Assembly: GCA_027485695.1 (NCBI GenBank)
Contig: JAIXQO010000003.1
Coordinates: forward strand, 930,932 to 994,931
Direction of reading: 5' to 3'
Length of the DNA: 64,000 nucleotides
Origin: Pseudomonadota bacterium
Lineage (GTDB): Bacteria > Bdellovibrionota > UBA1018
Part shown: positions 58,150 to 63,901 of the stretch, in pieces
Position numbering within the stretch: the first letter of the stretch is position 1
Layout of the letters: each line of letters begins with the position of its first letter
Program-made: the position numbers and the translations under genes
Notes under the pieces: model-generated
Databases searched by the model: none
What the model saw: the letters and a program-made list of their open reading frames with translations, nothing else
What the model was told of the DNA's origin: nothing

Positions 58150-59133
58150 TTACTGAGCGTCCTTCAGTCCGGGTTGATTCCCAAAAAAATAGCGATAGCT
58201 CTGTTTTTGATTCGGTCGCTTGGGGTCTTCGTAATAGAAGATCGATCCCAGTCCACTGCAGGATCTGCCGTGAGCATCGATCGTTGTCTGACTGCCGCGA
58301 CACAAACATGCGCTCGGTGCCGTTTGTGAGGCGGGGAATCGATAGTTCTGGCAGTATTTCTTGGTCTCAGACTCAGGACAAAGCTGCGCGACCCGACCGC
58401 CAAATTGAGTTTCGCAATCGATGTTTTGAAAAACACATTGCCCGTTCATCCAGCGCAGCCCCAGCACCTCTTGGCAGAGCAGGGGTTTTGGTCGCTCACA
58501 CTGATTCGTTTGGGCATTCCAGACATATCCGCTGGGGCGCATGGAGGCGCAACTCACGCGTGCCGGGTCGCCGTTTTGATTGGATGAAATCAGAATCGGT
58601 TGGCTGGCGAGGTCCCTGAAAATTTCATTCGAATCATGCCCCAACGGCAAATCGGAGTCCGCGTCGTTGTAAATGCGAATCCTGACTGCGATTTCCCCCG
58701 TCGAAATGCACTCGAACGAGTCTTGGGGGCAGTGGATGTCATAGGTGAGTTCGACACGAAAAGGCGCGTTTTCGTTTTCGCATTTTTTGGTGCTCTTCGT
58801 GATATCCGCGATGCGTTTGAAATTCGAGTTGTAGCAACCTTCGACCAGTTTTTTGGTGGTCCCGTTGCACTTGCCACGTGAATTGCAGTCATCGAATTTT
58901 TGCAGGTAGCGCCCCGAGGCTTTTTGGCATTTGAGTCCCCGTGAACGATGGAAACAGTCCCGAAGGTTGGCGTCCGCAACCGGCCCTCTCTCTTTGGCGG
59001 CCTGGTATTGTTCGTTAAATGGGTCATTCGACGCCCAGGCCGGGTGGACGAGCAAGGCGATGATGAGCCAGTTGAACCACATTCCTCGAGTATAACGCGG
59101 TTTTTCGATAAAATGGGGTGTCAATAAAAACAC
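58150..59133 (-). CDS. Cys-rich exported protein, family member A
   Basis: 327 aa; N-terminal signal; shares GCYxxxFxRI, APFRVxL...C...C and CxxxxPSGYVWNAQTNQCERPKPLLCQE...LRWMNGQC with the ORFs at 59468 and 61803. Confidence 0.75.
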   Translation of the reverse strand: MFLLTPHFIEKPRYTRGMWFNWLIIALLVHPAWASNDPFNEQYQAAKERGPVADANLRDCFHRSRGLKCQKASGRYLQKFDDCNSRGKCNGTTKKLVEGCYNSNFKRIADITKSTKKCENENAPFRVELTYDIHCPQDSFECISTGEIAVRIRIYNDADSDLPLGHDSNEIFRDLASQPILISSNQNGDPARVSCASMRPSGYVWNAQTNQCERPKPLLCQEVLGLRWMNGQCVFQNIDCETQFGGRVAQLCPESETKKYCQNYRFPASQTAPSACLCRGSQTTIDAHGRSCSGLGSIFYYEDPKRPNQKQSYRYFFGNQPGLKDAQ

Positions 59134-59187
59134 ACCCCAAGAGAGGCCTTCGCAATAATGAAGGATTTTGTGTTACACTAGTGATGT

Positions 59188-59403
59188 ATGAAAAATGAAA
59201 AAGGCATGACCCTCGTCGAAATCATGATCGCCTCCAGCGTTGCGTTGGTAATCGGTCTTGCGTTCGCCGAGATGAACTCGCAGCAATCCAAAACCCAAAA
59301 GCGCTTGCAGGTCAAAGCGTCGGCGCAGGATTTTCATAACTACGTCCGATTCCTCGTGATCAATACCGCGGTCGATACAGTCAATCAGTCGGCGACCAAT
59401 TGA
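59188..59403 (+). CDS. Very short type IV prepilin-like protein
   Basis: 71 aa: MKNEKG|MTLVEIMIASSVALVIGLAFAEMNSQQSKTQKRLQVKASAQDFHNYVRF. Confidence 0.8.
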   Translation: MKNEKGMTLVEIMIASSVALVIGLAFAEMNSQQSKTQKRLQVKASAQDFHNYVRFLVINTAVDTVNQSATN

Positions 59404-59467
59404 TCGTCTGAATCGAGGTAAATCTCGTTCCCGTGATTTTTTCGTTTCAGATGGGGGAGCGTTTTTT

Positions 59468-61447
59468 TTGCTGAAATATTTTTCAATTTCCGGCGTCGTC
59501 CGATCCGCGTTGATTTTCGCGGGGACGGCGTTTTTCGTTGGCGCGCATGCGGATGATGCTTTGAGGCGTTGTTACGCGCCATCGGAGGCCAAGCCTTGTG
59601 TAGAGGTGGGGCGAGGTAAGAAAACGCCTGAACTTCCAGTCTATCCGCAAAACTTCATCGTGAAACGCGGAGGTGCGGTGATTGAGAGTCAGCCGCTAGC
59701 CGGTTGTTACGATCTCAATTTTCGTCGAATTTCGAGCATCCCGGGTGGCGCTGAGAACGGCAAATGCCTGACCGATCGAGCGCCCGTGCGATTTCTGCTC
59801 CGTTATCGTACGACCTGCCCCGAGGGCAAACCTCGTTGTACGTACGGAAGTCGCGTCCAAGTGATTCCCGAGACCAGTCTCGATGGACCTCAGCCATTTG
59901 GAGATGGTTTCAATTTGAATCTCACGCTCGGTCTGCCGATTGTGCTCGGGCAGAGCGTTTCCAGTTTCTCCGCCAAGGACGCTTGCGTTTTTCTGGCGGG
60001 ACAGGCGGGCGGGGGATATGCATTTGACGAAGCTACGCAGACTTGCCAGAAGAAACCCGAAAAGGTCTGCGAGGAATTAGGTTGGACCTACCATCCCACC
60101 CTGCAAACGTGTTTGAGTTATGCTTCGGTTGAGTGCGAATCCGGTTGTGGAGATCCGCTTCAGGCTTGCGAGGGTTATACCTATGCGCCACCCGGTAAGA
60201 GTTGTGTTTGTCGTGGCAAGGCCAAATACCGCGATCTGTTCGGTGCGGCCTGTAGTTGGGTTCACGTCGATTTTTTGATTAACCCGCTTTGTGCCATGGA
60301 TAACGTACGTAACTTCGAGTGGGTTGCTGGCGACTACAGCAAAAACGAGCAAGATGCGTGTTGCCAGAAAGGGAGCTGCGCATCGTCCATCAATAATCGA
60401 GACTACGCAAAAAATCTGGATCTGGGCATTATTGCGCGTCCGTCGATCTCCTCTTATCTGGCTCATGCTCCCGTCGGGGTCGGCAGTCCTGCGCAGAAGT
60501 TCTGTGCGACTCAACCGACATCGCCCGCTTGTCGAAGCGTCGCGAGCGATGGAGGAGTGGATCCGACGGGAAGCGGAACTCCAGGAACGACGCCGACTCC
60601 ATCTTTCACTCCCACACCAACGGCGACTCCCACTTCGGGCGGCTCCGGAAACGGTGATACAGTTGTCCTGGATCCGAAACCTGTCTCCGGTGAACTCAAA
60701 GGTTGCGTTTGTGCACAAGCAGGGCGAGTGGCAGGGGACGGCGGAACGCTTCAGTGTGCAAGCTCACTCGTGAATGATGGAGTGGGTAATGTGCGGGACT
60801 ATGGGGCGATTACCTGCGCGGTGGGCAATCGAGTCTCCGTCGGTGGTGCATCGATCCTTTGTTATGAGTACGCTGATACGGTTGCAAAATGCGCTTACAA
60901 TGGGCCGATGGCGGCGACAGACCCTTCGACCTATCTGGTTTCGCCCAAATCGTGTTACTGCCAAGGCCCTGCGATCGATGATTTACGGTGCGTGTATACG
61001 ATCGAAGAGCGAGTCGGCGGAGTGCTGAAACGATCCTTTAATGAAACTCAGTACTGTCGACGTGGCTCGAATCTCACGCTTTATGGTGCGACGGTGAGTT
61101 GTTCGGCACCAAATACGCAAGATTGGACGAGCTGTAGTGCCGGTACCTCCGGTGGTGTAGTCGTGGGCGATAATCCCCCGAAAACACGCGATTGCAGCTG
61201 TTATCGTGAAGGCTCGATGGGCGGAGTTTGCGGCTACGCGAACGATACTGGCGACGGTTGCGACGTGGGAGTCTATGTTTGTGATCAGAGCGCGATGGCT
61301 TGCGCTACAGGGCCTGTGCGTCCCTACTGTGAGAACGGCTATGCGCCGATCAATATTCCGGCACCGGCTTGTTCAGGCGCGGTATCGGGAGGTGGCGGCG
61401 GAGGTTCAGGTGGCGGTGGGGCCCAAGAAGTCGAGCAATCGCTCTGA
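59468..61447 (+). CDS. Cys-rich exported protein, family member B
   Basis: 659 aa; TTG start; signal SALIFAGTAFFVGAHADD; shared motifs GCYDLNFRRISS, CxxxAGQAGGGYAFDEATQTCQKKPEKVCEELGWTYHPTLQTC; TP-rich linker TPGTTPTPSFTPTPTATPTSGGSG. Confidence 0.8.
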   Translation: MLKYFSISGVVRSALIFAGTAFFVGAHADDALRRCYAPSEAKPCVEVGRGKKTPELPVYPQNFIVKRGGAVIESQPLAGCYDLNFRRISSIPGGAENGKCLTDRAPVRFLLRYRTTCPEGKPRCTYGSRVQVIPETSLDGPQPFGDGFNLNLTLGLPIVLGQSVSSFSAKDACVFLAGQAGGGYAFDEATQTCQKKPEKVCEELGWTYHPTLQTCLSYASVECESGCGDPLQACEGYTYAPPGKSCVCRGKAKYRDLFGAACSWVHVDFLINPLCAMDNVRNFEWVAGDYSKNEQDACCQKGSCASSINNRDYAKNLDLGIIARPSISSYLAHAPVGVGSPAQKFCATQPTSPACRSVASDGGVDPTGSGTPGTTPTPSFTPTPTATPTSGGSGNGDTVVLDPKPVSGELKGCVCAQAGRVAGDGGTLQCASSLVNDGVGNVRDYGAITCAVGNRVSVGGASILCYEYADTVAKCAYNGPMAATDPSTYLVSPKSCYCQGPAIDDLRCVYTIEERVGGVLKRSFNETQYCRRGSNLTLYGATVSCSAPNTQDWTSCSAGTSGGVVVGDNPPKTRDCSCYREGSMGGVCGYANDTGDGCDVGVYVCDQSAMACATGPVRPYCENGYAPINIPAPACSGAVSGGGGGGSGGGGAQEVEQSL

Positions 61448-61451
61448 ATCC

Positions 61452-61697
61452 TTAGTTTCCGCCTCCGGGATTTGTCGGCGCCTGCAAGATCTCCGTGGCT
61501 CGTTGATTCAAGATGGCTTCGACCTTTTTATGAAAATCCTGCGAGTTCGAGCGGACCTGGGTCGCGCGCTGCTGATTGGCGAAATAGGTGTTGAGCGAGA
61601 GGAACCCCAGAATCACGACTGCCGCGATGGCGCCGGTAACGAGGCCTTCTAAGAGCGTGAATCCTGCGACGTTTCTCAAACGAGAGCGATTTCCCAT
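61452..61697 (-). CDS. Very short type IV prepilin-like protein
   Basis: 81 aa: MGNRSRLRNVAG|FTLLEGLVTGAIAAVVILGFLSLNTYFANQQRATQVRSNSQDFHKKVEAILNQ. Confidence 0.8.
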   Translation of the reverse strand: MGNRSRLRNVAGFTLLEGLVTGAIAAVVILGFLSLNTYFANQQRATQVRSNSQDFHKKVEAILNQRATEILQAPTNPGGGN

Positions 61698-61802
61698 ACT
61701 CTTAGTGTAAACCGTTTTTTTTCCGACGCAAATGGGAGGAGGTCACGGCGGACACAGTTCTTCGAGTTCTGTCGACGGAGTGAGCGCTCATGCTACACTG
61801 AA

Positions 61803-62873
61803 ATGAACCAAGGCCATAAGAGTACGGGGGGGGGGCACTGGGTGCAGCGTCAATATCAGCACACTATTGCGGTCGGCCTCTGGGTGATGTTCTCTAGTCT
61901 CTCGCTCGAAGCGCGTTCCGATGAACTATCCGAACGCCTGCTCGCATGCCTACGTCCGAGCCAGGGCGTTTTTTGCTTGGTAAACACGAATCCAGTCTCA
62001 TTCCCCGGACTGCAAGATCCCGATACTCAGCTCCCCATCCGGGGTTGTTATGATGGAATGTTCAACCGATTGGAGAATGCGCGAGACGGCCAAGACGGCT
62101 CCGAGTGTCCGTCGGGCAAGGCGCCGATTTTCGTCGATGTTGTGGTCACTACTCATTGCGGTGCCGCGGATCAGTCTCGCTGTTCAACGGGAGGGTATCT
62201 CCGCGTATCACACATCATGGAAGTTCAAGGAGACCCGCAAAATCCGGGTGTCCTGGGAAAACTCGCCATCGAATTGCCGCAGACCCCTTGGATTATCTCG
62301 GCTTCCGGAGTGATGGATCGTTTACGCGTCACCTGTGAGGGACTGCCGGGCCATGTGTTTGACCCGAACCTCCGAACTTGCGTTCAAAAGCCGGAGTCAC
62401 TTTGTGCAGAACTGAGTCTCGTCTGGAAAAATGGGCGTTGTCAGCCTCCGTCCCTGCGCTGCGCGAGCTGCTTGGCGGACGAGATGAATTACTGTCGCGG
62501 CTATGTCTATATTCCGAACGGAGGAAATTGTTTTTGCGAAGGTAAAAATACGACTTTGAGCTCGTGCAAATTTCAGTTGCCGACCGTTCAAGCGCAACCT
62601 GCAAGAGGACTGACTTACAACCGATTGATTTGTCCGCCTCGACCGGCAGACGCCATGGGCGGCGGTGGCGCGCCAACCAAAGACAATCAGTACAACTGCC
62701 AGCCTTACGTTTTTCCGAGCGGGCGAGAGAGTGATTGTCATTCGCCGAATTGGTTCAATCCATGGACGGGAAAATGTGACTCTCCGGATGACCTCAAGCT
62801 CAGAGAGATCATCGATTCCACCACTGAAAACGAAGAAAACAGTGCTTCGAAAACGGGAGCAGCCGGCGGATAG
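61803..62873 (+). CDS. Cys-rich exported protein, family member C
   Basis: 356 aa; GCYDGMFNRLEN, CxxLPGHVFDPNLRTCVQKPESLCAELSLVWKNGRCQPPSLRC, YCRGYVYIPNGGNCFCEGK; G10 tract near the 5' end. Confidence 0.78.
   Translation: MNQGHKSTGGGHWVQRQYQHTIAVGLWVMFSSLSLEARSDELSERLLACLRPSQGVFCLVNTNPVSFPGLQDPDTQLPIRGCYDGMFNRLENARDGQDGSECPSGKAPIFVDVVVTTHCGAADQSRCSTGGYLRVSHIMEVQGDPQNPGVLGKLAIELPQTPWIISASGVMDRLRVTCEGLPGHVFDPNLRTCVQKPESLCAELSLVWKNGRCQPPSLRCASCLADEMNYCRGYVYIPNGGNCFCEGKNTTLSSCKFQLPTVQAQPARGLTYNRLICPPRPADAMGGGGAPTKDNQYNCQPYVFPSGRESDCHSPNWFNPWTGKCDSPDDLKLREIIDSTTENEENSASKTGAAGG
61826..61835. repeat. Poly-G (10) homopolymer tract inside the 5' coding region
   Basis: agtacGGGGGGGGGGcac, encoding ...ST-GGG-H... 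Confidence 0.95.
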
Positions 62874-63085
62874 CTGCGCAATTCGAGAGGCGACCCTTCG
62901 AGGTGTTTCAATTTTTGGGCTGTGCGAAAAGATTGGAAACGAAACCCTTTTGTCTAACTTGTTTACACTTAGCTGGTAATTGGCCGCAATGATTGGGTTG
63001 TTTCGACTTTTCCGCGTTTTTAACGTGTTTCCAACAGTTTCTTTTCTTCATTGAGATTATTACACGACATAAGTATAAATTGCGC

Positions 63086-63901
63086 ATGATGAGCGAATAC
63101 GCCTCGCATGCCGCGATCGATGAAAACGCGAACTCCACTTCGAACGTACTCTCGAGTATTTTCGAGCGGAAACGCAAAAAAAACCGCAGCTACAGCCTTC
63201 GCGCCTTTGCGCGAGATCTGAAGCTCTCTCCCGGTGCCATCAGTCAGATTCTTTCGGGGCGCCGACGCCTCACTTTTCGCACGGCTTCGCAAATTCTTCG
63301 CCGAAGCAATCTGGACACTGAGTCCCGTTCTGAAATTCAATCGTACTTCTTGGGTAATGCCGGCTCTGTCATCGCACCGGGCATCATTGATATTGAGCAG
63401 GACGATGGCCTCAATTATGACATTTCTCCCGATGTGTTTTCGGTGATCGCCGATTGGTACCACTACGCGATTCTGGAAATGGCGGCGATGGAAGGTTGCG
63501 AAGATGATCCGAAACAACTCGGTCAACGCATCGGAGTGTCTTCGGACCGAATCAAGCGGGCGATTGATCGTTTAGTGTCCTTGGGGCTACTTAAGAAGAA
63601 AGACGGCTATCTCCTCAAGACGCGCAAAAAAGTCTCTACATTTGTTTCTTATGGAGCGACCACTTCGAACCCATTAAAAGAGCGTCAGAAGCAAATTCTC
63701 GCGCTATCGAAGCGCTCCCTGATGAGGGACCCGATCGAAAAACGCGTTCACGCTGCATATACGCTTTCAATCAGTGAGGCACAAATCCCTGCACTACGCG
63801 CGAGAATTTCAGAAATTTTTGATGAATTCGTTCAGATCGGTTGCGGTGAGAACGAAAAAATTTACGAAGCGATGATTAACCTGATTCCGTTGGAGAAATA
63901 A
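63086..63901 (+). CDS. TIGR02147 family protein (putative regulator)
   Basis: Likely start MMSEYASHAAIDENANSTSNVLSSIFERKRKKNRSYSLRAFARDLKLSPGAISQILSGRRRLTFRTASQILRRSNLDTESRSEIQSYF. Confidence 0.85.
   Translation: MMSEYASHAAIDENANSTSNVLSSIFERKRKKNRSYSLRAFARDLKLSPGAISQILSGRRRLTFRTASQILRRSNLDTESRSEIQSYFLGNAGSVIAPGIIDIEQDDGLNYDISPDVFSVIADWYHYAILEMAAMEGCEDDPKQLGQRIGVSSDRIKRAIDRLVSLGLLKKKDGYLLKTRKKVSTFVSYGATTSNPLKERQKQILALSKRSLMRDPIEKRVHAAYTLSISEAQIPALRARISEIFDEFVQIGCGENEKIYEAMINLIPLEK

Follow-up and report, generated by a model that had tools for sequence, protein, structure and literature searches.

Short prepilins beside Cys-rich exported proteins in a Bdellovibrionota genome: candidate split minor type IV pilins

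Genes of the locus

The window, i.e., the whole stretch of 64,000 nucleotides which was analysed, contains all five ORFs named in the original prediction (Table 1). Three of them encode Cys-rich exported proteins, termed A, B, and C; two encode short prepilins.

Table 1. Features of the locus (window positions; NTD, shared N-terminal domain)
Feature	Positions	Strand	Remarks
Cys-rich exported protein A	58150..59133	-	327 aa as ORF; NTD only, no extended C-terminal module
NTD of protein A	58249..58986	-	From alignments and hhalign; first half resembles pilin globular head
Divergent intergenic region, protein A (ATG 59082)/prepilin 1	59083..59187	.	Short; from sequence
Short prepilin 1	59188..59403	+	71 aa; G|MTLVE signal; α1 helix only
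Cys-rich exported protein B	59468..61447	+	659 aa: NTD, Pro/Thr linker, Cys-rich C-terminal part
NTD of protein B	59555..60268	+	From alignments
Short prepilin 2	61452..61697	-	81 aa; G|FTLLE signal; α1 helix only
Divergent intergenic region, prepilin 2/protein C	61698..61802	.	From sequence
Cys-rich exported protein C	61803..62873	+	356 aa: NTD and short tail
NTD of protein C	61923..62582	+	From alignments

Paralogy of proteins A, B, and C is evident from BLASTP, in which each pair was compared singly (E 8e-13, 3e-13, and 3e-16). They have in common an NTD of about 230 residues with an ordered Cys framework, and on this point alignments and BLASTP bear out what had been claimed. The assignment of export relies on inspection and a simple rule. 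By inspection, the internal ATG at 59082, directly before the signal peptide, is the more likely true start of protein A. The tail of protein C has a sub-threshold match to CBM_14 (21.4 bits vs a cut-off of 22.1).

Prepilins 1 and 2 each comprise a class III signal and a single helix with a short tail behind it. Their identity is 31% across 71 aa (E 9e-13). Prepilin 1 lies above the Pfam N_methyl cut-off of 21.2 bits (25.3 bits, E 1.1e-5), prepilin 2 lies below it (17.1 bits). Against an HMM of 198 positions, built from 20 full-length Bdellovibrionota pilins, prepilin 1 matches positions 3-61 (E 8e-11) and prepilin 2 positions 2-61 (E 9e-9). The HMM is matched at its helix end only, which agrees with the earlier description as minimal class III prepilins lacking a globular domain. 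A third short prepilin of 90 aa (C6:1005886-1006158) is 59% identical to prepilin 1, and it has kept the QDF stretch. All three are arranged head-to-head with a Cys-rich gene, with about 105 bp in between, and the gene of protein B follows 64 bp downstream of prepilin 1 on the same strand. The region between protein A and prepilin 1 is a possible shared control region of the two genes; a consensus promoter was sought there and none was found, the scan giving one site vs 2.5 expected. Directly downstream of the module (window 62993-63901) is a TIGR02147/DUF4423 regulator gene, possibly a local regulator of the module.

Of the 12 N_methyl matches in the genome, only these three are short prepilins of the kind described. 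Two PilA-like pilins, a T2SS-like cluster, a pilin pair, and a gene with Tad-like neighbors account for the rest. A prepilin-motif match at C3:384598 sits among Tad/Flp-like genes and was set aside as unrelated to the short prepilins. Two genes for peptidase A24, i.e., prepilin peptidase, are present.

The Cys-rich family in this genome

The original prediction had described a family of three. The three paralogues of the window stand, but an HMM of the NTD identifies 12 members in the genome. Six of these, A, B, and C included, are clustered within 17 kb at C6:989-1006 kb, which also harbors the third short prepilin. Three are located at C1:697-700 kb in the order and orientation of A, B, and C, and single members reside at C6:443 kb, C2:757 kb, and C6:635 kb. 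The second A/B/C triplet (L014:6609-11530, C1:696.6-701.5 kb) is free of prepilins. Over the N-terminal part, its B protein shares 87% identity with the copy of B at C6:443 kb; the C protein at C2:757 kb is a close copy, too.

Across the 12 NTDs 17 columns are invariant, mostly Cys. In most members the NTD is followed by Thr/Gly/Pro linkers and differing C-termini, i.e., RCC1 repeats, RCC1 plus Kelch, a LamG-like domain, or Cys-rich repeats. Two NTD proteins (L018:2620-5781 and L019:5748-9488) have bacterial RCC1 repeats, in one case together with Kelch repeats. When the Cys-rich proteins were compared with Pfam and NCBIfam, no model scored above cut-off for the NTD. The NTD HMM detected no member in 96 relatives at E 0.01, and a search of relatives with a B-type alignment gave no match. 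AlphaFold2 models of the NTD from the three window paralogues had a pLDDT of 42; for a relative's head, using two sequences, pLDDT was 34. Both values are too low for the models to be used.

The original prediction had named homologues that occur widely without adjacent short prepilins as evidence against it. In part this is the case: no short prepilin is close to six of the 12 members, which are distributed over four loci. With 12 Cys-rich proteins and three short prepilins, strict one-to-one pairing is excluded. These numbers suggest either that short prepilins are shared or that some of the Cys-rich proteins have departed from the pilus.

Full-length pilins and their two halves

A 12-row model of the NTD, run against 389 relatives, retrieved weak matches. 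These include full-length prepilins (L021, L022, L025) and an exported Cys-rich protein beside short prepilins (L024). Another weak match, L026, is peptidase-like and was put down to chance. A search with the L022 head uncovered a family of large Bdellovibrionota pilins which share one head, characterized by two Cys, a GFxxxGxxC stretch, a CP stretch, and two further Cys. Pfam has no model for this common head. It is followed by variable modules, e.g., S74, collagen-like repeats, or TSP1. Two full-length pilins of 640 aa (L055:1315-3240 and L069:1183-3114; G022) belong to this family and end in peptidase S74 (PF13884, E 7e-17 and 4e-21), the endosialidase-type chaperone domain as in phage tail fibres. 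Other pilins with this head (L051, L057, L064, L072, L073; L066) bear collagen-like repeats (GPQGP) or thrombospondin type 1 domains.

The relation between NTD and pilin heads emerges when profiles are aligned. With hhalign, the NTD matches the 20 full-length pilins at 66% (E 5.5e-5, score 37.9). Full column permutations of the same comparison gave a mean score of 13.4 (sd 2.6). Permutations with Cys columns fixed reached at most 25.2, re-placement of only the Cys columns at most 31.7, and the reversed profile 16.9; none of 450 permuted controls attained 37.9. Against pilin heads only, the NTD match amounts to 82% (E 1e-5). Nine heads of partner proteins from other genomes, i.e., exported proteins next to short prepilins, align with the pilin heads at 87% (E 4e-6) and with the NTD at 54% (E 1.3e-4). 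The scores for partners-pilins, partners-NTD, and NTD-pilins are 40.8, 34.7, and 40.2; 100 permutations of each comparison reached at most 17.0, 15.5, and 21.4, respectively. Overall, 0 of 550 column-permuted controls reached the observed NTD-pilin scores. A pilin-head HMM run on 590 proteins, together with shuffled and reversed controls, ranked five exported partners at the top (E 5e-5 to 0.43; first shuffled sequence 1.6). An HMM of the partners matched the full-length prepilins L139 (3.4e-9), L136 (2.6e-8), and L142 (1.3e-4), with reversed controls starting from 0.2. Protein A matches the pilin-head HMM at E 0.0065, and single NTDs score against pilin HMMs only at E 0.007-0.017. Pairwise BLAST of heads against full-length pilins gave no convincing match; the homology is therefore remote. 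Profile methods, and these only, thus indicate that the shared NTD is remotely homologous to the globular head of full-length pilins.

The boundaries of the two kinds of proteins complement each other. Short prepilins of the window type cover positions 2-61 of the 198-position HMM (E 8e-11 to 2e-8), and exported partners, if matched by their first half, begin at positions 57-76. In full-length pilins the first Cys of the head is 69-81 residues past the cleavage glycine; short prepilins terminate 59-77 residues past it (median 65). Mature protein B, as judged by inspection, would start about seven residues ahead of its first Cys. The split point would thus lie between helix and head, and a helix stub and a Cys-rich head look like the two halves of one pilin.

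The original prediction had envisaged a separate partner of the PilY1 type. Its exported partner is retained; the PilY1 part is not, since the Cys-rich proteins appear to carry the pilin's own head and PF05567 matches none of the 12 members. PilY1/PilC tip adhesins (PF05567) are likewise exported, large, Cys-containing, often multi-copy, and linked to minor pilins (PMC13190605), and free-standing tip adhesins of this sort might dock on minimal adaptor pilins without being pilin heads. The size, export, copy number, and varied display domains of the Cys-rich proteins recall diversified PilY1 sets (PMC13190605), their genes adjoin minor prepilins, and the six members without a nearby prepilin would fit as well. 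Yet the NTD matches pilin heads by profile, short prepilins stop where heads start, and full-length pilins with a partner domain exist. PilY1 membership was rejected because PF05567 is absent from the Cys-rich proteins; in a genome-wide search neither PF05567 nor the control matched anywhere. We regard free-standing PilY1-like adhesins as a rather unlikely explanation, and favor pilin heads encoded apart from their helices.

Recurrence in relatives and comparison with known systems

The pairing of short prepilins with Cys-rich partners, whose co-occurrence the original prediction had proposed as a check, recurs in other Bdellovibrionota genomes. Among the neighborhoods sampled, a stub is followed by a head of 250-270 aa at L108 and L114. 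At L107 a stub overlaps the gene of a 320 aa protein and a second stub precedes a 523 aa head. Further stub/head pairs are found at L116, L118, L123, L124, and L125. Exported proteins with at least eight Cys are neighbors of 13 of 21 non-redundant short prepilins vs 5 of 55 full-length prepilins (Fisher 6e-6), and 10 of 18 vs 5 of 48 when this genome is left out (Fisher 3e-4); these odds are approximate because the sample was drawn from the top matches of one search and export was called by a simple rule. A search with the heads of G050 and G052 gave matches only in those two genomes. Order-mates also possess classes of short prepilins which are not beside Cys-rich proteins (L109-L113, L115, L117, L120-L122), among them the VEMMIVGAILSV and TEVMILGS types.

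Prepilins without any globular domain might be taken for decaying fragments of longer pilin genes. This is hardly credible. Many relatives have short prepilins as open frames of matching length which end at about the same place, and the diverged window copies have kept the QDF(H) stretch. Behind the window copies there is no space for a remnant, as the neighboring gene begins after 64 bp in one case and ends after 4 bp in the other, which contradicts disrupted genes as the origin of these ORFs. Quite improbable, too, is that the Cys-rich proteins form a surface or secreted family unlinked to pili, with a merely loose proximity of short prepilins that serve a different filament or a machine resembling type II secretion. 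Prepilins are indeed absent at most family loci of this genome, and a T2SS-like pseudopilin cluster exists elsewhere in it. Against this, all three short prepilins directly adjoin family members, and in other genomes the adjacency recurs with other partner families, overlapping genes included.

A pilin encoded by two genes has a precedent. The Geobacter pilin is divided into PilA-N and PilA-C, which has been explained by gene fission (PMC5174107; PMC6201914). The filament contains PilA-N, with 61 aa in the mature form (PMC11046646), and PilA-C in equal parts (PMC12954529; PMC11046646). As at the present locus, this type IVa system (GSU1496/GSU1497; PDB 6VK9, 7TGG) comprises a headless short prepilin and a head in the neighboring gene, and both halves resemble one full-length pilin. 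The differences are considerable. PilA-C is a major-pilin head of 104 aa, whereas the heads described here have 320-1250 aa, are Cys-rich, bear display domains, and are multi-copy; the genes here are in divergent or mixed order, with 12 heads for three stubs. In the PDB, the stubs match Geopilin domain 1 chains only (9egp and 7tgg). Up to E 1 the NTD matched no PDB chain, PilA-C in 7TGG included, and for the pilin heads only one unrelated weak match was obtained. As the heads match no PDB chain, the arrangement is of the same kind as in Geobacter, which does not make the proteins members of the same family; judged from the sequences, the split probably originated separately. The original prediction had recognised no described family with this arrangement. 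This holds for the shared domain, for which Pfam and NCBIfam have no family; the arrangement as such is precedented by Geobacter PilA-N/PilA-C (PMC5174107; PDB 7TGG).

Variable domains on a minor-pilin base are also known from Streptococcus sanguinis PilB/PilC and the Myxococcus Kil Tips (PMC12075869). There, helix and head form one polypeptide; here they are encoded by two genes. The same distinction applies to the full-length Bdellovibrionota pilins (L022, L050-L076). They have a homologous helix and head and variable C-terminal modules, yet consist of one gene with a single prepilin signal and have no Sec-exported head.

Taken together, we consider it probable that these loci encode minor type IV pilins split between two genes, with heads that are exported via Sec and bear display or adhesin domains. 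This is in line with the predicted pilus association of minimal prepilins with their globular function moved into an exported partner. It builds on the paralogy, the remote homology of both halves to one full-length pilin family, their complementary boundaries, and the recurrent adjacency; complex formation, filament incorporation, and an adhesive function we infer. On this reading, the short prepilins would be pilins reduced to a class III signal and the α1 helix. Prepilin peptidase would process them, and they would pack in the filament core. The Cys-rich proteins would contain the globular head of a pilin as N-terminal domain and reach the periplasm separately via Sec; their heads are probably held by disulfides and extended by the variable C-terminal domains. 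Stub and head may then come together again in the periplasm by non-covalent contacts, on the model of Geobacter PilA-N/PilA-C. A type IV-like filament would present the heads as adhesin or recognition modules, probably on or close to its tip. More tentatively, one may conceive of a combinatorial pilus tip, in which a few generic stubs are sockets for a dozen disulfide-rich heads, each encoded apart and differing in display domains, so that exchange of exported heads could alter surface specificity and leave the filament subunits as they are, and of pilin splitting as a recurrent event in Bdellovibrionota.

The open-licence papers searched describe no split pilins in Bdellovibrionota. In the literature searched split pilins are confined to Geobacter and relatives, where electron transfer is the context in which the split is discussed. 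If the present interpretation is true, pilins are also split in a lineage known for predators, their heads diversified into an array of display proteins, and fission of a pilin can be of use in surface recognition and modular evolution. Testable roles would thereby fall to many Cys-rich exported proteins and headless prepilins of Bdellovibrionota which are as yet unannotated.
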